Assembly (NCBI RefSeq): GCF_900116615.1
Contig: NZ_FPBF01000005.1
Coordinates: forward strand, 69,552 to 133,551
From: Algoriphagus locisalis
GTDB lineage: Bacteria; Bacteroidota; Bacteroidia; Cytophagales; Cyclobacteriaceae
Length of the DNA stretch: 64,000 bases
Reading direction: 5' to 3'
The position numbers were made by a program, and so were the translations under genes. The notes under the pieces are model-generated. The model worked only from the letters and a program-made list of their open reading frames with translations, was not told where the DNA came from and did no database searches. Shown one piece after another: positions 57,966 through 64,000 of the stretch. Position 1 is the first letter of the stretch. Every line of letters begins with the position of its first letter.

Positions 57966-58601
57966 ATGACACTCCAAGAGGTGAAGTTGCTTGCTGCGAA
58001 AGGCGAGGGGCAAAGGATAGAATTCAAAAAGAAAGCGACTTTTCCTGAAAAGATTGTTAGGGAGTTAATCGCCTTTGCAAATACTTCAGGGGGCGATTTA
58101 TTGATCGGAGTGGATGATGACGGGACTGTTAGTGGTCAGCGGTTTATTGAGGAAGAGATTTTTGTGATGGAAAAGGCGATCAAAGAGCTGATTTTTCCTC
58201 GGTTAGATTATGAGTTGTTTTCGCTGAAACTCAATGAGAAAAAGGGAGTCGCCGTTTTCAAAGTTCCAATAAGTCCCAACCGCCCGCATTACCTCAAGGA
58301 GAAAGACCGAAAGCAAGCATTTATTCGAGTGGCAGACCGCTCTGTAAAGGCGAGTAGAGAAGTTTGGGAAATATTGCGGAGGGGGAAAAATCCTCGGGAT
58401 ATGGTTTTTACCTATGGGAGAAAGGAAGAGATATTGATGAAGGCTCTTGGCGAATCAGAGAAAATCACGCTCAAGGAATTTGCGAAACTGGCGAATCTGC
58501 CAAAATTTCTGGCTTCCAAAACCTTGGTTCGCTTGGTTTTGGCCAATGTACTTCAAATCCATCCGCAGGAATCGGAGGATTATTTTACGTTGAAGGAGTA
58601 A
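57966..58601 (+). CDS. AlbA_2 (Schlafen-like) DNA-binding domain protein, 211 aa
   Basis: The N-terminal AlbA_2 domain shows EGQRIEFKKKATFPEKIVRELIAFANTSGGDLLIGVDDDG and RVADRSVKASREVWEIL. A C-terminal winged-helix-like part follows (ITLKEFAKLANLPKFLASKTLVRLVLANVLQIHPQ). Such proteins are often regulators or parts of defence or toxin-antitoxin loci, but nothing here shows such a partner. The 3' end (from 58484) lies in the first copy of a 333-bp tandem duplication. Confidence 0.85.
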   Translation: MTLQEVKLLAAKGEGQRIEFKKKATFPEKIVRELIAFANTSGGDLLIGVDDDGTVSGQRFIEEEIFVMEKAIKELIFPRLDYELFSLKLNEKKGVAVFKVPISPNRPHYLKEKDRKQAFIRVADRSVKASREVWEILRRGKNPRDMVFTYGRKEEILMKALGESEKITLKEFAKLANLPKFLASKTLVRLVLANVLQIHPQESEDYFTLKE

Positions 58602-59149
58602 GGGCGTGCTATTCGGGATTTGCAATCCCGAATTTCACTTGGGTTGGGTAGAAAGAGAAGAAGATTATGTGTGGAGTAGTGCGGCGGGATATTTTGGGAT
58701 AAAAAAAGGAATGCTTGAATTGGCTGAGTTTGGGTGACTAGGGTTGAGCTTAGTTGGTTTATATGGATTATAAATCCAACGGATCGGCCTCGGGATTGCA
58801 AATCCCGAGGAGCGGTGAAATTGGCGAATCTACCAAAGTTTTTGGCCTCCAAAACCTTGGTGCGCTTGGTTTTGGCCAAAGTACTTCAAATCCATCCGCA
58901 GGAGTCGGAGGATTATTTTATGTTGAAGGACTAAGGGCATGCTATTCGGGATTTGCAATCCCGAATTTCACTCGGGTTGGGTAGAAAGAGAAGAACATTA
59001 TGTGTGGAGTAGTGCGGCGGGATATTTTGGGATAAAAAAAGGAATGCTTGAATTGGCTGATTTTGGGTGACTAGGGTTGAGCTTAGTTGGTTTATAAGGA
59101 TTATAAATCCAACGGATAAGCCTCGGGATTACAAACCCTGAGGAGCGTC
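58484..59149. repeat. 333-bp tandem direct duplication with REP-like palindromes
   Basis: Bases 58484-58816 recur at about 58817-59149 with roughly 5-8% difference. Each unit holds the last ~40 codons of the AlbA gene, a palindrome (ATTCGGGATTTGCAATCCCGAAT, 58611-58634 region) and a second one (CCTCGGGATTGCAAATCCCGAGG region, 58788-58810). The second palindrome in unit 2 is degraded (GGGATTACAAACCC). The duplicated end also supplies the last codons of the PLP-enzyme gene on the other strand. Confidence 0.85.
58817..58934 (+). pseudogene. Duplicated 3' fragment of the AlbA gene
   Basis: This fragment codes for KLANLPKFLASKTLVRLVLA and the rest of the C-terminus, with only a few substitutions relative to 58484-58601. 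It lacks the AlbA_2 domain and a start of its own and is the product of the tandem duplication. Substitutions are mostly silent or conservative (N to K, T to M, E to D). Confidence 0.8.
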
Positions 59150-60119: not shown

Positions 60120-61154
60120 ATGAGCATGCAACAAGAGGAAGATTTTGATGAGGAGGAGTTAGAGCTATACGAACATTTTAAGTTTGTAATAGACAAAGGC
60201 CAGACGCCCATCAGGATTGATAAGTTTTTAACAGGCAAAATAGCTTTCGCCACACGCAATAAAATCCAACAGGCCATAGATGCAGGGGCTATTCAGGTGA
60301 ATGGGGAATCTATCAAGGGGAGTTACAAGGTAAAGCCGCTTGATGATATACGTGTGATGATGGGCAAGCCACCACGTGATACGGAAGTGCTGCCTGAGGA
60401 TATTCCACTTGATTTTGTCTATGAGGATAAGCAGTTGCTCGTAGTAAACAAGCCTGCGGGCATGGTGGTGCATCCAGCTCATGGGAACTGGTCCGGCACT
60501 TTAGTGAATGGGTTGGTACATCATTTTCAGAATCTACCTGAGATGAAGGGGAATGAAGGCAGGCCAGGGCTGGTACATCGAATCGACAAGGATACCTCTG
60601 GATTGCTGGTGATCGCCAAATCTGAAGATGCCATGACATTTCTTGCAAAACAGTTTTTCCACCATACCATAGAGCGCACTTACCTGGCATTGGTGTGGGG
60701 AGAGCCTGAAGAGGATGCAGGTACAGTTGTAGGTCATGTAGGAAGAAGTGCCAAAAACCGTAAAATCATGGATGTCTTTCCGGACGGAAGTCAGGGCAAG
60801 CATGCTGTAACTCATTGGAAAGTGCTGAAGCGATTACGATATGTTTCGCTGATCCAGTGTAATCTGGAAACTGGACGCACCCATCAGATCCGGGCACATA
60901 TGAAATTCTTGGGACATCCGCTTTTCAATGATGCAACTTATGGAGGAGATAAAATCCGCAAGGGAACCCAATTCTCGAAGTATAAGACTTTTGTCCAAAA
61001 TGCATTTGATCTTTTACCAAGGCAGGCATTACATGCCATGTCTTTGGGATTCATTCACCCAGTCACCAATGAAAAACTATATTTTGAAGCACCGCTTCCT
61101 GAGGATTTTCAATCTGTTCTCGATAAATGGGATAACTATGTGAATTTCGAATAG
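60120..61154 (+). CDS. rluD: Ribosomal large subunit pseudouridine synthase, RluD/RluA family
   Basis: The protein is 344 aa. An S4-type RNA-binding domain (TPIRIDKFLTGKIAFATRNK, about residues 29-48) precedes the catalytic domain with HRIDKDTSGLLV, whose Asp is the nucleophile, and TGRTHQIRAHM. The most likely target is uridines of 23S rRNA helix 69, but RluA-family members differ in target. The acidic N-terminus (EEDFDEEELELYEHF) is common in Bacteroidota versions. The gene is divergent from the PLP enzyme, 58 bp away. Confidence 0.93.
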   Translation: MSMQQEEDFDEEELELYEHFKFVIDKGQTPIRIDKFLTGKIAFATRNKIQQAIDAGAIQVNGESIKGSYKVKPLDDIRVMMGKPPRDTEVLPEDIPLDFVYEDKQLLVVNKPAGMVVHPAHGNWSGTLVNGLVHHFQNLPEMKGNEGRPGLVHRIDKDTSGLLVIAKSEDAMTFLAKQFFHHTIERTYLALVWGEPEEDAGTVVGHVGRSAKNRKIMDVFPDGSQGKHAVTHWKVLKRLRYVSLIQCNLETGRTHQIRAHMKFLGHPLFNDATYGGDKIRKGTQFSKYKTFVQNAFDLLPRQALHAMSLGFIHPVTNEKLYFEAPLPEDFQSVLDKWDNYVNFE

Positions 61155-61368: not shown

Positions 61369-61400
61369 TTTGCAATAAATAAACCGACCTTCTATATTTG
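61369..61400 (+). promoter_or_regulatory. Bacteroidota-type promoter for tRNA-like RNA 1
   Basis: TTTG at 61369-61372, 20 bases, and TATATTTG at 61393-61400 match the TTTG / TAnnTTTG consensus at normal spacing. Transcription should start near 61407, leaving a ~65-base leader before the RNA at 61472. Confidence 0.6.
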
Positions 61401-61471: not shown

Positions 61472-61598
61472 TGTAGGATGTTGAAATTGGCAGACAAGCC
61501 CTCCTGTCTCGGGGGTGGAGGTCATAGGATAAAGCATTTAGCGAGCTCGTAAATTTGCCTAACTACTCCGTGGAGGTTCGAATCCTTCTCCTACAGCA
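61472..61598 (+). ncRNA. tRNA-like RNA 1 with enlarged variable arm
   Basis: TGTAGGA (61472-61478) pairs perfectly with TCCTACA (61589-61595) as acceptor stem. The D-arm TTGAAATTGGCAGACAA is leucine-type. The anticodon stem is CCCTC/GGGGG with loop CTGTCTC, giving a GUC triplet (61506-61508) and an unusual U at position 37. The T-arm is GGAGG-TTCGAAT-CCTTC (61572-61588). The discriminator is G and no full CCA is encoded. Between anticodon and T arms lie 56 bases: a TGGAG/CTCCG stem and a copy-specific inner hairpin (TTTA...TAAA around CGAGCTCG). It is not a standard Leu, Ser or Asp tRNA. A terminator follows at 61628. Confidence 0.75.
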
Positions 61599-61627: not shown

Positions 61628-61660
61628 AAAACCATGAAATTTTGTTTCGTGGTTTTTTTT
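61628..61660 (+). terminator. Rho-independent terminator of tRNA-like RNA 1
   Basis: ACCATGAAA and TTTCGTGGT form a 9-bp stem (one G-U pair), flanked by AAA/TTT that extend it, and a run of eight T residues follows. It shows that the upstream RNA is a transcription unit of its own. Confidence 0.85.
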
Positions 61661-62022
61661 ATGCCTTTTTTTATTTTAGATGGATTTTGCCTTTGTTCTA
61701 ATTAGCCCAATAAGATTTGGTGTATATAGGTGGCAACCTCCATTATTAAATCATTAATTACTATACCTATATTTGGTGATTAATTATTGATATTTCAAAT
61801 AATTTCTTTTTAATATATGTTTACTGTAAAAAAGTAAATTAAATCTTGTCAAAATTTTAATAAACCAATGATATCTCTAATTTTGACCCAGCAAAATAAA
61901 AAATGGAAGAGCTGATTGGTTTTGCGCTCCTTTAGAAACTTTGCTTATCAGACCTATTAAACTTTGATTTTCTAAAAATCAATAGAATTGGCAAAAGGCC
62001 AGTTAAGAGTAACATTCCACAT
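61661..62022. other. AT-rich spacer between the two tRNA-like genes
   Basis: No gene is evident in these 362 bases. A weak promoter-like pair, TTTG (61940-61943) and TA-AAC-TTTG (61958-61966), has non-standard spacing both within and between boxes. The sequence is not a copy of the leader of tRNA-like RNA 1. Confidence 0.4.
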
Positions 62023-62147
62023 TGTAGGATGTTGAAATTGGCAGACAAGCCCTCCTGTCTCGGGGGTGGAGAATCAAGTAAAAAGCGTAATTCAACCGGA
62101 CTATTGCCTAACTTCTCCGTGGAGGTTCGAATCCTTCTCCTACAGCA
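62023..62147 (+). ncRNA. tRNA-like RNA 2 with enlarged variable arm
   Basis: The first 49 bases (acceptor, D-arm, anticodon arm with GUC at 62057-62059, TGGAG) are identical to RNA 1, and the last ~43 bases (TTGCCTAACT, CTCCG, T-arm, acceptor, GCA) differ at one position. Only about 35 bases between them differ. The variable-arm stem can extend to seven pairs here (TGGAGAA with TTCTCCG). Both copies keep AAAGC(A/G) and TTGCC on the two sides of the tip, allowing a short inner stem. The RNA has its own terminator four bases downstream. Confidence 0.75.
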
Positions 62148-62150
62148 TAT

Positions 62151-62177
62151 AAAGCAGCACTCATGTGCTGCTTTTTT
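62151..62177 (+). terminator. Rho-independent terminator of tRNA-like RNA 2
   Basis: AAAGCAGCAC and GTGCTGCTTT form a perfect 10-bp stem with a four-base loop (TCAT) and a following T run. It begins only three bases after the tRNA-like 3' end. Confidence 0.92.
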
Positions 62178-62225: not shown

Positions 62226-64000
62226 ATGAGCGAGGCCCACAAAGACAAGCATTCGAAACACCCTTTTCGAAAGAAAGTAGTGAGGTGGGTGATGTTTACT
62301 TTTTTAGCCATACTTTTTCTGGAATTTGTAGTTTATTTTGGTTCCAACCTATTGCTGTCGAGTTGGGCTAGGAGCAAAATCAATGAAGCGGCAAAGGATA
62401 TATATCTAGTTGATTTCAATCGGGTAAGGTTTTCCTTGCTCAGACGGGGCGTATTCATGGACGGCATCGTCATGAAGCCAATAGGGGATCGCAAACCCGG
62501 GCAAAATCAGGCATTGTTTGATTTGACCTTGGATGAATTGGCTTTGAAAAAACTCTGGTTTGACTTCTCTGAGGGCATCTTGTATGTGGGTGAATTGGAA
62601 TTTGATAATCCAAATATCAGTATGGATTTGCCTCCTAAATCCAATCAAACCGAGGGTAAGCAAAATGAAAACGAGAAAGGATCCCCTGTCAAAGCTCTTG
62701 AAGAGGAACTAAAGAAGATAATAGATAAGGCTAATTTCACTGGGGTATATATTCGTGAACTGGAAATCGATCATGCCGATTTATTCTTCTTGAATTTCCT
62801 AAGCCAAAATTCCTTAAAAGCGGAGAATACCAGGTTGCTTGTAAAGGATATCAACTGGGCGACTAAGGAGGAATGGGAGACTCCCTTTAATGCCAGGGGA
62901 TTTGAGTTTGATCTTGACAATGTAAACTTCCCGCTTCCTGATGGTGTGCATTCGATAAAATCTGAGAAGGTTTTTGTGAGTTCATTGGATAACAGGATTT
63001 TAATCAATGGTTTTCAGCTGACCCCAGATAGGACTGCCCAAAGCAAATCTTATTATGATGTGTATTTGAGTGAACTACGAGTTGGAAATGTGGACTTGAA
63101 TGAGGCTTTTATGTCCTCAAATGTTCTTATAGATGAGATAGTTTTAAATGATCCACACTTCAAAGTGGAGCAAAATGCCATCAGTGAGAAGGATAGTACA
63201 GCAAGTGGTGATCTAAACGAATTGATTCAGGGTATTCTCAAGTCTTTTGAGGTTCAGGAATTATCAGTGAATAATGGAAAGTTTTCCACTTATAGTTTGG
63301 CTGATACGCTAAAGAATAGGATTGATATCCAAAAGCTTGACTTTAAGATGATCAATTTTTACCTGGGTGCAGATGAGTCCAGAAAAGTCAATCAATTTTT
63401 CTATGGGGAGGAAGCAGCAATGGATATAGAAAAAGCTGATTTGTACTTATCCGATGAGGTCCACGTAATTTATGCTGATGGAGTAAGTGTGTCCTCTTTC
63501 AAAGACGAAATTATAGTTGAAAATATCAGGGTAGAACCAAGAGAGGATGCTTTGAAAAATGATCTTGCGAAGCACATCATGAGGATTTCACTGCCAAAAC
63601 TCGCCCTGACGAATACTAATTTGAAACGCCTTTACAATGAGGGTGTTTTTACTATTGAGGAGATGCTAATTCAGTCTCCAAAAGTTGAAATCACCGAACT
63701 TAGAAAATCTGAAGAAACTACAGAAAGGGTACCAGTAAAAGAACTTCTAAAGGGGTATATGGATGAGCTGTCCATCGGAAAAATGGACTTGAGAGATGGT
63801 GAAGTTCAGTTTAAAAATGAGATGGGAGTGCGGAGTGACGATATAGGTTTTGAGAAATTCAGCCTGTTATTGGAAAAAGTCTTTTTGCAACCTAATCTGG
63901 ATACAGATGTGAGAAACCAATTCCTTGCCGAAGAGATGGTGCTAAGTCTAGACAAATATAGGTTGAAGCTCAGGGATAATCTACATGAGTTTTTGGCTGA
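62226..64000 (+). CDS. AsmA-like membrane-anchored protein, 5' part (runs off the window)
   Basis: The frame is open from the ATG at 62226 to the window end, 591 codons without a stop. The protein begins with a basic segment (HSKHPFRKKVVRW) and one transmembrane helix (about residues 22-45, FTFLAILFLEFVVYFG), followed by a long repetitive series of short amphipathic beta strands (VRFSLLRRGVFMDGIVM, LKAENTRLLVKDI, IRVEPREDAL) with acidic spacers. This layout fits AsmA/TamB-like (DUF748-like) envelope proteins, which act in lipid transport or outer-membrane assembly. The end of the protein and its exact family cannot be seen. Confidence 0.8.
   Translation, partial: MSEAHKDKHSKHPFRKKVVRWVMFTFLAILFLEFVVYFGSNLLLSSWARSKINEAAKDIYLVDFNRVRFSLLRRGVFMDGIVMKPIGDRKPGQNQALFDLTLDELALKKLWFDFSEGILYVGELEFDNPNISMDLPPKSNQTEGKQNENEKGSPVKALEEELKKIIDKANFTGVYIRELEIDHADLFFLNFLSQNSLKAENTRLLVKDINWATKEEWETPFNARGFEFDLDNVNFPLPDGVHSIKSEKVFVSSLDNRILINGFQLTPDRTAQSKSYYDVYLSELRVGNVDLNEAFMSSNVLIDEIVLNDPHFKVEQNAISEKDSTASGDLNELIQGILKSFEVQELSVNNGKFSTYSLADTLKNRIDIQKLDFKMINFYLGADESRKVNQFFYGEEAAMDIEKADLYLSDEVHVIYADGVSVSSFKDEIIVENIRVEPREDALKNDLAKHIMRISLPKLALTNTNLKRLYNEGVFTIEEMLIQSPKVEITELRKSEETTERVPVKELLKGYMDELSIGKMDLRDGEVQFKNEMGVRSDDIGFEKFSLLLEKVFLQPNLDTDVRNQFLAEEMVLSLDKYRLKLRDNLHEFLA

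Follow-up and report, generated by a model that had tools for sequence, protein, structure and literature searches.

tRNA-dependent asparagine synthesis, as it occurs in Deinococcus, Thermus, Staphylococcus and Bdellovibrio, is carried out on tRNA-Asn by a non-discriminating aspartyl-tRNA synthetase (ND-AspRS) and the amidotransferase GatCAB. The pair recognised by bacterial GatCAB is U1-A72, and a survey of 547 genera contained 18 with AsnRS, GlnRS and GatCAB and without asparagine synthetase, some of them Bacteroidetes (available part of PMC4206432), while gatCAB was absent from 12 of 14 Bacteroidetes in the accessible text of another study (PMC3927822). In E. coli the AsnC regulator gene is divergent from asnA, an asparagine-forming function. 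Staphylococcus aureus has a tRNA-Gly with a role outside translation, in the cell wall. According to the part of the source available, this tRNA is charged by its synthetase and poorly recognised later in translation (PMC8007984). The allo-tRNAs have a long variable arm and 8/4 or 9/3 stems; a Ser identity is suggested for them, GUC is a common anticodon, and some forms are unused in E. coli translation (accessible part of PMC7609411).

The window analysed here, a stretch of 64,000 nt of Algoriphagus locisalis DNA, holds two copies of a tRNA-like RNA that are 85 % identical (Table 1). They are flanked by an RluA-family pseudouridine synthase gene (60120-61154) and by an ORF that begins at 62226. 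Sequence and alignment give an acceptor stem of 7 bp (TGTAGGA/TCCTACA), a D arm with the leucine-like loop AAATTGGCAGA, an anticodon-like stem CCCTC/GGGGG, a variable region with an insert of 40-odd nt, and a T arm GGAGG-TTCGAAT-CCTTC followed by G73 and C74. The copies do not differ in the 5' core or the T arm; they diverge in the insert and the flanks. The GUC triplet occupies 61506-61508 of copy 1, with U37 at 61509 and C38 at 61510, and 62057-62059 of copy 2. An earlier note on this DNA had described GUC at 34-36 with U37 in both copies, on a type-II body with a long variable arm and a leucine-like D-loop, and in these respects it was borne out by the sequence and the alignment. The apical parts of the variable arms carry palindromes, GAGCUC in the copy-1 type (61543-61548) and CCGG in the copy-2 type (62096-62099), which could form loop-loop dimers. 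Two terminator-like hairpins were observed 3' of the RNA copies compared to 0.5 expected, and the promoter-like element was assigned on what we take to be the Bacteroidota promoter consensus. With the first one or two bases left out, each copy alone folded no better than its shuffles by minimum energy (z +1.02 and +0.10). Elsewhere in the window (58364-58984) the 3' part of the gene at 57966-58601 is seemingly part-duplicated downstream, where similar overlapping ORFs share ACYSGFAIPNFT.

Table 1 Features of the two tRNA-like RNAs in the Algoriphagus locisalis window
Feature	Position	Strand	Basis or remark
tRNA-like RNA copy 1, mature part to G73-C74	61472..61597	+	DNA match and covariance-model match (136.1 bits), alignment
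tRNA-like RNA copy 2, mature part to G73-C74	62023..62146	+	Covariance-model match (135.8 bits)
Anticodon-like loop CUGUCUC, copy 1	61504..61510	+	U35, C36 and C38 invariant family-wide
Anticodon-like loop CUGUCUC, copy 2	62055..62061	+	Sequence, alignment
Variable arm with insert, copy 1 (GGAUAAA ... CUAAC; apical palindrome GAGCUC)	61517..61569	+	
Variable arm with insert, copy 2 (apical part with CAACCGGACU)	62068..62118	+	
Promoter-like TTTG-N20-TATATTTG of Bacteroidota type, 5' of copy 1	61369..61400	+	Read by eye
Terminator-like hairpin with T run, 3' of copy 1	61628..61661	+	Hairpin 61628-61656
Terminator-like hairpin with T run, 3' of copy 2	62151..62177	+	Hairpin 62151-62174

The RNA belongs to an apparently undescribed family: no description was found with ARAGORN, with Rfam or in a literature search of limited reach into subscription papers. 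RF00005 at its gathering score gave no match in the window, ARAGORN and Rfam called neither copy, and neither was among the 39 places found when the whole A. locisalis genome was searched with RF00005. A DNA search gave matches in 81 of 97 genomes, A. locisalis included, and at least 118 stretches from named genomes, among them those of Algoriphagus, Echinicola, Cyclobacterium, Belliella and further Bacteroidota, contained the exact 36-nt core. A covariance model was built from 44 diverse members, in which the cloverleaf, with its GG/TTC elbow, has its pairs formed in 96.0 % of cells and 14 pairs changed on both sides; the covariation score was 0.295, compared to 0.149 +/- 0.008 for shuffled alignments and 0.088-0.151 when slid. 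With a best E value below 1e-17 as the criterion, counted by hand from the tables and with strict filters that may miss some members, sampling of the order gave 139 genomes with the RNA out of 194 (including G492 and G574, near the cut-off and unread), and sampling of the phylum gave 40 out of 395. One family outside the class (f67) had it in all three genomes. Family members that were read scored 86-140 bits and the next class 66 bits or less; ten of ten lower-scoring matches checked (55-66 bits) were ordinary tRNA-Leu.

Extra bases, one or two, are present in the T stem of 6 of the 44 seeds (L154, L157, L158, L162, L165 and L170), the adjacent T loop being normal, and the insert sub-motif GGGUUGACCAC is common to several families (L082, L136, L143, L158, L170 and others). 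At six loci (L161, L235, L236, L237, L239 and L242) four to seven copies lie in tandem with short spacers, often near-identical, which suggests concerted evolution and a need for dosage. A 77-nt relative in genome G070 (L234:2038-2114, minus strand; 68.5 bits) lacks the long variable arm yet keeps the family acceptor end and, in its loop CUAUCUC, the UCUC, so the long arm may be dispensable. ARAGORN calls this variant tRNA-Asp(atc), and BLAST over 13 genomes gave a full-length match in its own genome alone; GatB and the AsnC subtype considered below are both present there.

Conservation was counted over 115 unique homologues found by the model. U1-A72, G2-C71, G73 and C74 occur in all of them, and so do U35, C36 and C38 in a recount that did not require these bases. 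U33, which is near universal among decoding tRNAs, is present in 86 and absent from 29; it is missing from at least one copy in 18 of 77 loci, and both window copies have it. G34 is present in 98 homologues and replaced by A, C or U in 17, and position 37 is U in 103, C in 9 and G in 3, with loop variants such as CGGUCUC, CAGUCUC, CCGUCUC, UCGUCUC, CUCUCUC, CUUUCUC and CUAUCCC. As U33 and G34 vary, conservation of the loop does not serve decoding, and the RNA appears unable to read codons. The earlier note had regarded the identical loops of the two copies as a sign of selection and had named varied anticodons in homologues as evidence to the contrary; the comparison of loops upholds selection for U35, C36 and C38, but not for the triplet as an anticodon, since positions 33 and 34 vary. 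Missense at Asp codons, also raised there, is unlikely, as U33 is dispensable and A. locisalis possesses ordinary tRNA-Asp(GUC) in two genes, grounds on which decoding as Asp was rejected. The RNA is probably kept off the ribosome, a possibility raised in the same note.

For bacteria, the available part of a compilation of identity elements gives G73, G10, G34, U35, C36 and C38 as Asp determinants, with G1-C72 aiding E. coli AspRS, A73 and core elements for Leu, a list of G73, C72, G2-C71, R4-Y69, C11-G24 and G30-C40 for Ser, and a set that includes G1-C72 and A37 for Glu (PMC9976931). Judged by the conserved nucleotides, aspartate would be the best-fitting identity, although G34 is incomplete and G10 occurs in just 15 of the 115 homologues. 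Charging by LeuRS or SerRS, as the earlier note envisaged, was rejected: position 73 is G throughout, not the A of LeuRS, position 72 is A throughout, not the C of the Ser list, and G30-C40 occurs in 2 homologues. Glutamate was rejected as well, on the invariant U1-A72 and G2-C71 and the lack of A37 and of G1-C72 (GluRS set: G1-C72, U2-A71, A37). Since U8 and C65 are invariant and unable to pair, the stems are 7/5 and 8/4 pairing is impossible; together with the poor showing of the Ser elements C72 and G30-C40, this speaks against membership among the allo-tRNAs. The RNA shares the long variable arm and the GUC triplet with them and differs in its leucine-like D-loop, in A72, in its occurrence in Bacteroidota and in its links to AsnC and GatB. 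With the tRNA-Leu of the same genomes it has the D-loop and the type-II body in common, but it carries G73, U1-A72, a loop NNNUCNC and a long structured insert.

The gene of an AsnC/Lrp-family regulator lies near the RNA in 53 of 78 loci according to neighbour-ORF clustering; among the 25 largest clusters, which are annotated in part, SufB follows with 12 loci and all remaining clusters have 5 or fewer. A tblastn search, counted without duplicates, placed the regulator gene in 52 of 74 loci, and it was not adjacent in 22; in all 52 it is divergent from, and upstream of, the first RNA copy, with a gap of 122-328 nt. The arrangement resembles that of E. coli asnC-asnA, except that the RNA gene occupies the place of asnA. 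The best PDB match of the regulator is E. coli AsnC (172 bits, the next 110), and four members scored 151-174 on the NCBIfam AsnC model, under its cut-off of 227. With a threshold of at least 224 bits, the AsnC subtype was present in 41 of 42 genomes with the RNA compared to 7 of 46 without it; genome G063 has the RNA and GatB and gave no AsnC match. In A. locisalis the AsnC orthologue (67 % identity) lies outside the window (G000:C5:202900-204200, L348), beside sufB as at several linked loci and with no RNA on its divergent side, and therefore the RNA has probably moved in this lineage.

A search with filters off for a diverged RNA at 25 AsnC loci (those of A. locisalis, G070 and genomes without the RNA) found none; its two hits were a tRNA-Asn (L260, 20.9 bits) and a distant weak stretch in L251 (11.5 bits). 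In the genomes without the RNA, ORFs up to 1.5 kb from AsnC were inspected over their initial 60 residues, and no asparagine synthetase was recognised among them. Neighbours of the AsnC-type gene in such genomes are that tRNA-Asn (L260:1372-1446), an AsnRS confirmed by scan (L266:2035-3450) and, at L258:3-674, a partial asparaginase-like ORF that is below the model cut-off.

From U1-A72 and AsnC it was predicted, before the search, that genomes with the RNA have GatCAB and are without asparagine synthetase. With GatB alone taken to represent GatCAB, GatB was found in 43 of 43 genomes with the RNA (G070 too) compared to 11 of 36 without it, in sets that were hand-picked and in which relatives are not independent. 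It was absent from all 21 tested RNA-lacking genomes that belong to the class but not to the order of A. locisalis, some of them members of families f23 and f24. Two families contain members without RNA and GatB (G098, G215 and G449 in f23; G113 and G208 in f24), the other tested members having both, and these paired states suggest at least two separate events. Where AsnRS and GlnRS occur together (31 genomes), GatB was present in 22 of 22 with the RNA and in 0 of 9 without it (Fisher p 5e-8, kinship ignored): in the tested genomes of this kind GatCAB has no known decoding duty and is retained only alongside the RNA. The published gatCAB count mentioned above (PMC3927822, as far as the source was available) agrees with the families that lack the RNA, not with those that have it, in which GatB was found.

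E. coli-type AsnB, taken as a match ending at model position 384-389 in an ORF 528-584 aa long (1204 aa as read in one case), occurred in 0 of 43 genomes with the RNA and in 20 of 36 without it. At least three of these proteins have a second match piece at 437-517, and the four of the 20 that were checked scored 871-935 bits on NF006949; a shorter, different match in G060 (1-376, 687 aa) was left uncounted. Genomes with the RNA do contain further AsnB-like proteins that exceed the TIGR01536 cut-off, six of which scored 193-308 on NF006949 (cut-off 499). A. locisalis itself has three, with 300-392 bits, above the TIGR01536 cut-off. Such proteins might produce asparagine. A joined query for AsnA, AsnRS and GlnRS was run on 31 genomes with the RNA and 12 without it. 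AsnA was found in 1 of 31 (G255) and 3 of 12, AsnRS in all 31 and all 12, and a strong GlnRS match in 22 of 31 and 9 of 12. The AsnRS match reached 575 bits or more in 29 of the 31, and in two genomes of f67 it was 277 and 295 bits, with proteins that pass the AsnRS cut-off. GatB is present in all three RNA-lacking genomes without a strong GlnRS (G074, G508 and G595). In the A. locisalis genome GatB, AsnRS and GlnRS were present, and searches for AsnA and E. coli-type AsnB found neither.

The presence of AsnRS, the apparently missing or reduced asparagine synthetases, the U1-A72 amidotransferase mark and the proposed succession of AspRS and GatCAB are shared with tRNA-dependent asparagine synthesis. 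The difference lies in the carrier, which here would be a separate non-decoding RNA with an Asp-type loop instead of tRNA-Asn, so that a discriminating AspRS might be enough. Among the hits listed for the 31 genomes with the RNA there was no second, archaeal-type AspRS-like protein. An AspRS search on 16 stretches gave ten readable N-termini and a shortened one, and in the five of the ten that came from genomes with the RNA the candidate ND site is occupied by L, F or K, as it is much the same in enzymes from genomes without it; the A. locisalis AspRS is outside this sample. His at this site is what we take to be the mark of non-discriminating enzymes, and the similarity between the two groups makes the residue a weak indication. 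The tRNA-Asn of A. locisalis also has U1-A72 and could be an alternative carrier, were the AspRS non-discriminating.

From the family and its structure, the conserved nucleotides, the linkage to AsnC, the co-occurrence with GatB and the absence of E. coli-type AsnB, we infer that the RNA is charged and amidated, that asparagine is then set free and that RNA synthesis responds to it. AspRS would load aspartate on the RNA via U35, C36, C38, mostly G34, and G73; GatCAB would recognise U1-A72 and amidate Asp-RNA to Asn-RNA; deacylation would then free asparagine for AsnRS and metabolism. The AsnC-type regulator, whose gene in most loci points away from the first RNA gene, would tune RNA synthesis to the asparagine level. 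Asn-RNA would be dangerous in translation, where Asp codons would be misread, and this fits the loss of U33, the large structured arm and, in some members, a bulged T stem, which together would exclude it. We consider it fairly probable, on these sequence-based grounds, that the RNA is such a carrier, kept out of decoding, dedicated to the formation of asparagine by AspRS and GatCAB, and controlled by AsnC. Points against this reading are that G34 varies and G10 is scarce, both being AspRS elements, that G1-C72 occurs in none of the 115 homologues, that AsnB-like paralogues exist, and that G255 has AsnA together with the RNA. The presence of GatB in part of the RNA-lacking genomes, G063 without AsnC, the loci and the window in which AsnC is not adjacent, and the 9 of 31 RNA-containing genomes without strong GlnRS are further such points; the last are uninformative, because GatCAB is there also needed for Gln-tRNA.

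The same identity elements and the links to AsnC and GatB would also fit if the RNA were charged, perhaps amidated, and served as a sensor of the Asp/Asn state or as an aminoacyl donor to a transferase or another product, not as the main source of asparagine. The AsnB-like paralogues kept in genomes with the RNA favour this reading, which we nevertheless regard as unlikely: it does not predict the absence of E. coli-type AsnB, and beside AsnC and SufB none of the large, partly annotated neighbour clusters exceeds five loci. Quite unlikely, in our estimate, is an uncharged structured regulatory RNA under AsnC whose UCUC loop or insert binds mRNA or protein, the association with GatB being inherited history. 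The promoter-like and terminator-like elements and the variable apical parts, different between the copies, would suit such a molecule, but the invariant U1-A72, G2-C71, G73 and C74 and the intact T loop are needs of a charged tRNA, and the distribution of GatB among AsnRS- and GlnRS-containing genomes, with the parallel absences in two families, would be left to history.

A type-II tRNA charged with Leu or Ser and misreading Asp codons, or a 7/5 cousin of the allo-tRNAs, is very improbable. Such an origin would account for the long variable arm, G73 and the leucine-like D-loop, and the nearest of the 32 distinct tRNAs of A. locisalis are indeed Leu(gag) (48/70) and Leu(tag) (47/70), the next having 43; against it stand the complete lack of A73 and C72, the loss of U33, the T-stem extras and, for the cousin, the stem lengths of the allo-tRNAs. 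Hardly credible at all is a functionless decaying tRNA gene or mobile tRNA-like repeat, to which the tandem arrays of 2-7 copies and the change of place in the A. locisalis lineage might point, given the covariation and the invariant sites across many families; plasmid and phage searches with copy 2 gave no match.

On the reading we prefer, that of an asparagine carrier, the RNA would be an amino-acid-making tRNA that never decodes, uniting the anticodon-loop identity of tRNA-Asp with the acceptor identity recognised by GatCAB, for which an ordinary discriminating AspRS would suffice and which, with an asparagine-sensing AsnC, would have taken over from asparagine synthetase in a large part of Cytophagales and in several further families of Bacteroidota; we give this wider statement about an even chance. 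Charging by a synthetase and poor use in translation, both predicted for the RNA, recall S. aureus tRNA-Gly, which is of ordinary tRNA size and has no link to amino acid synthesis. If true, aspartate would be converted to asparagine on an RNA without a promiscuous AspRS or mistranslation, and the RNA may be the missing carrier in genera with AsnRS, GlnRS and GatCAB and no asparagine synthetase, which would explain the Bacteroidetes of this kind in the available part of the survey (PMC4206432). It would then be an RNA counterpart of the amino-group carrier proteins, a tRNA withdrawn from the genetic code for metabolism.
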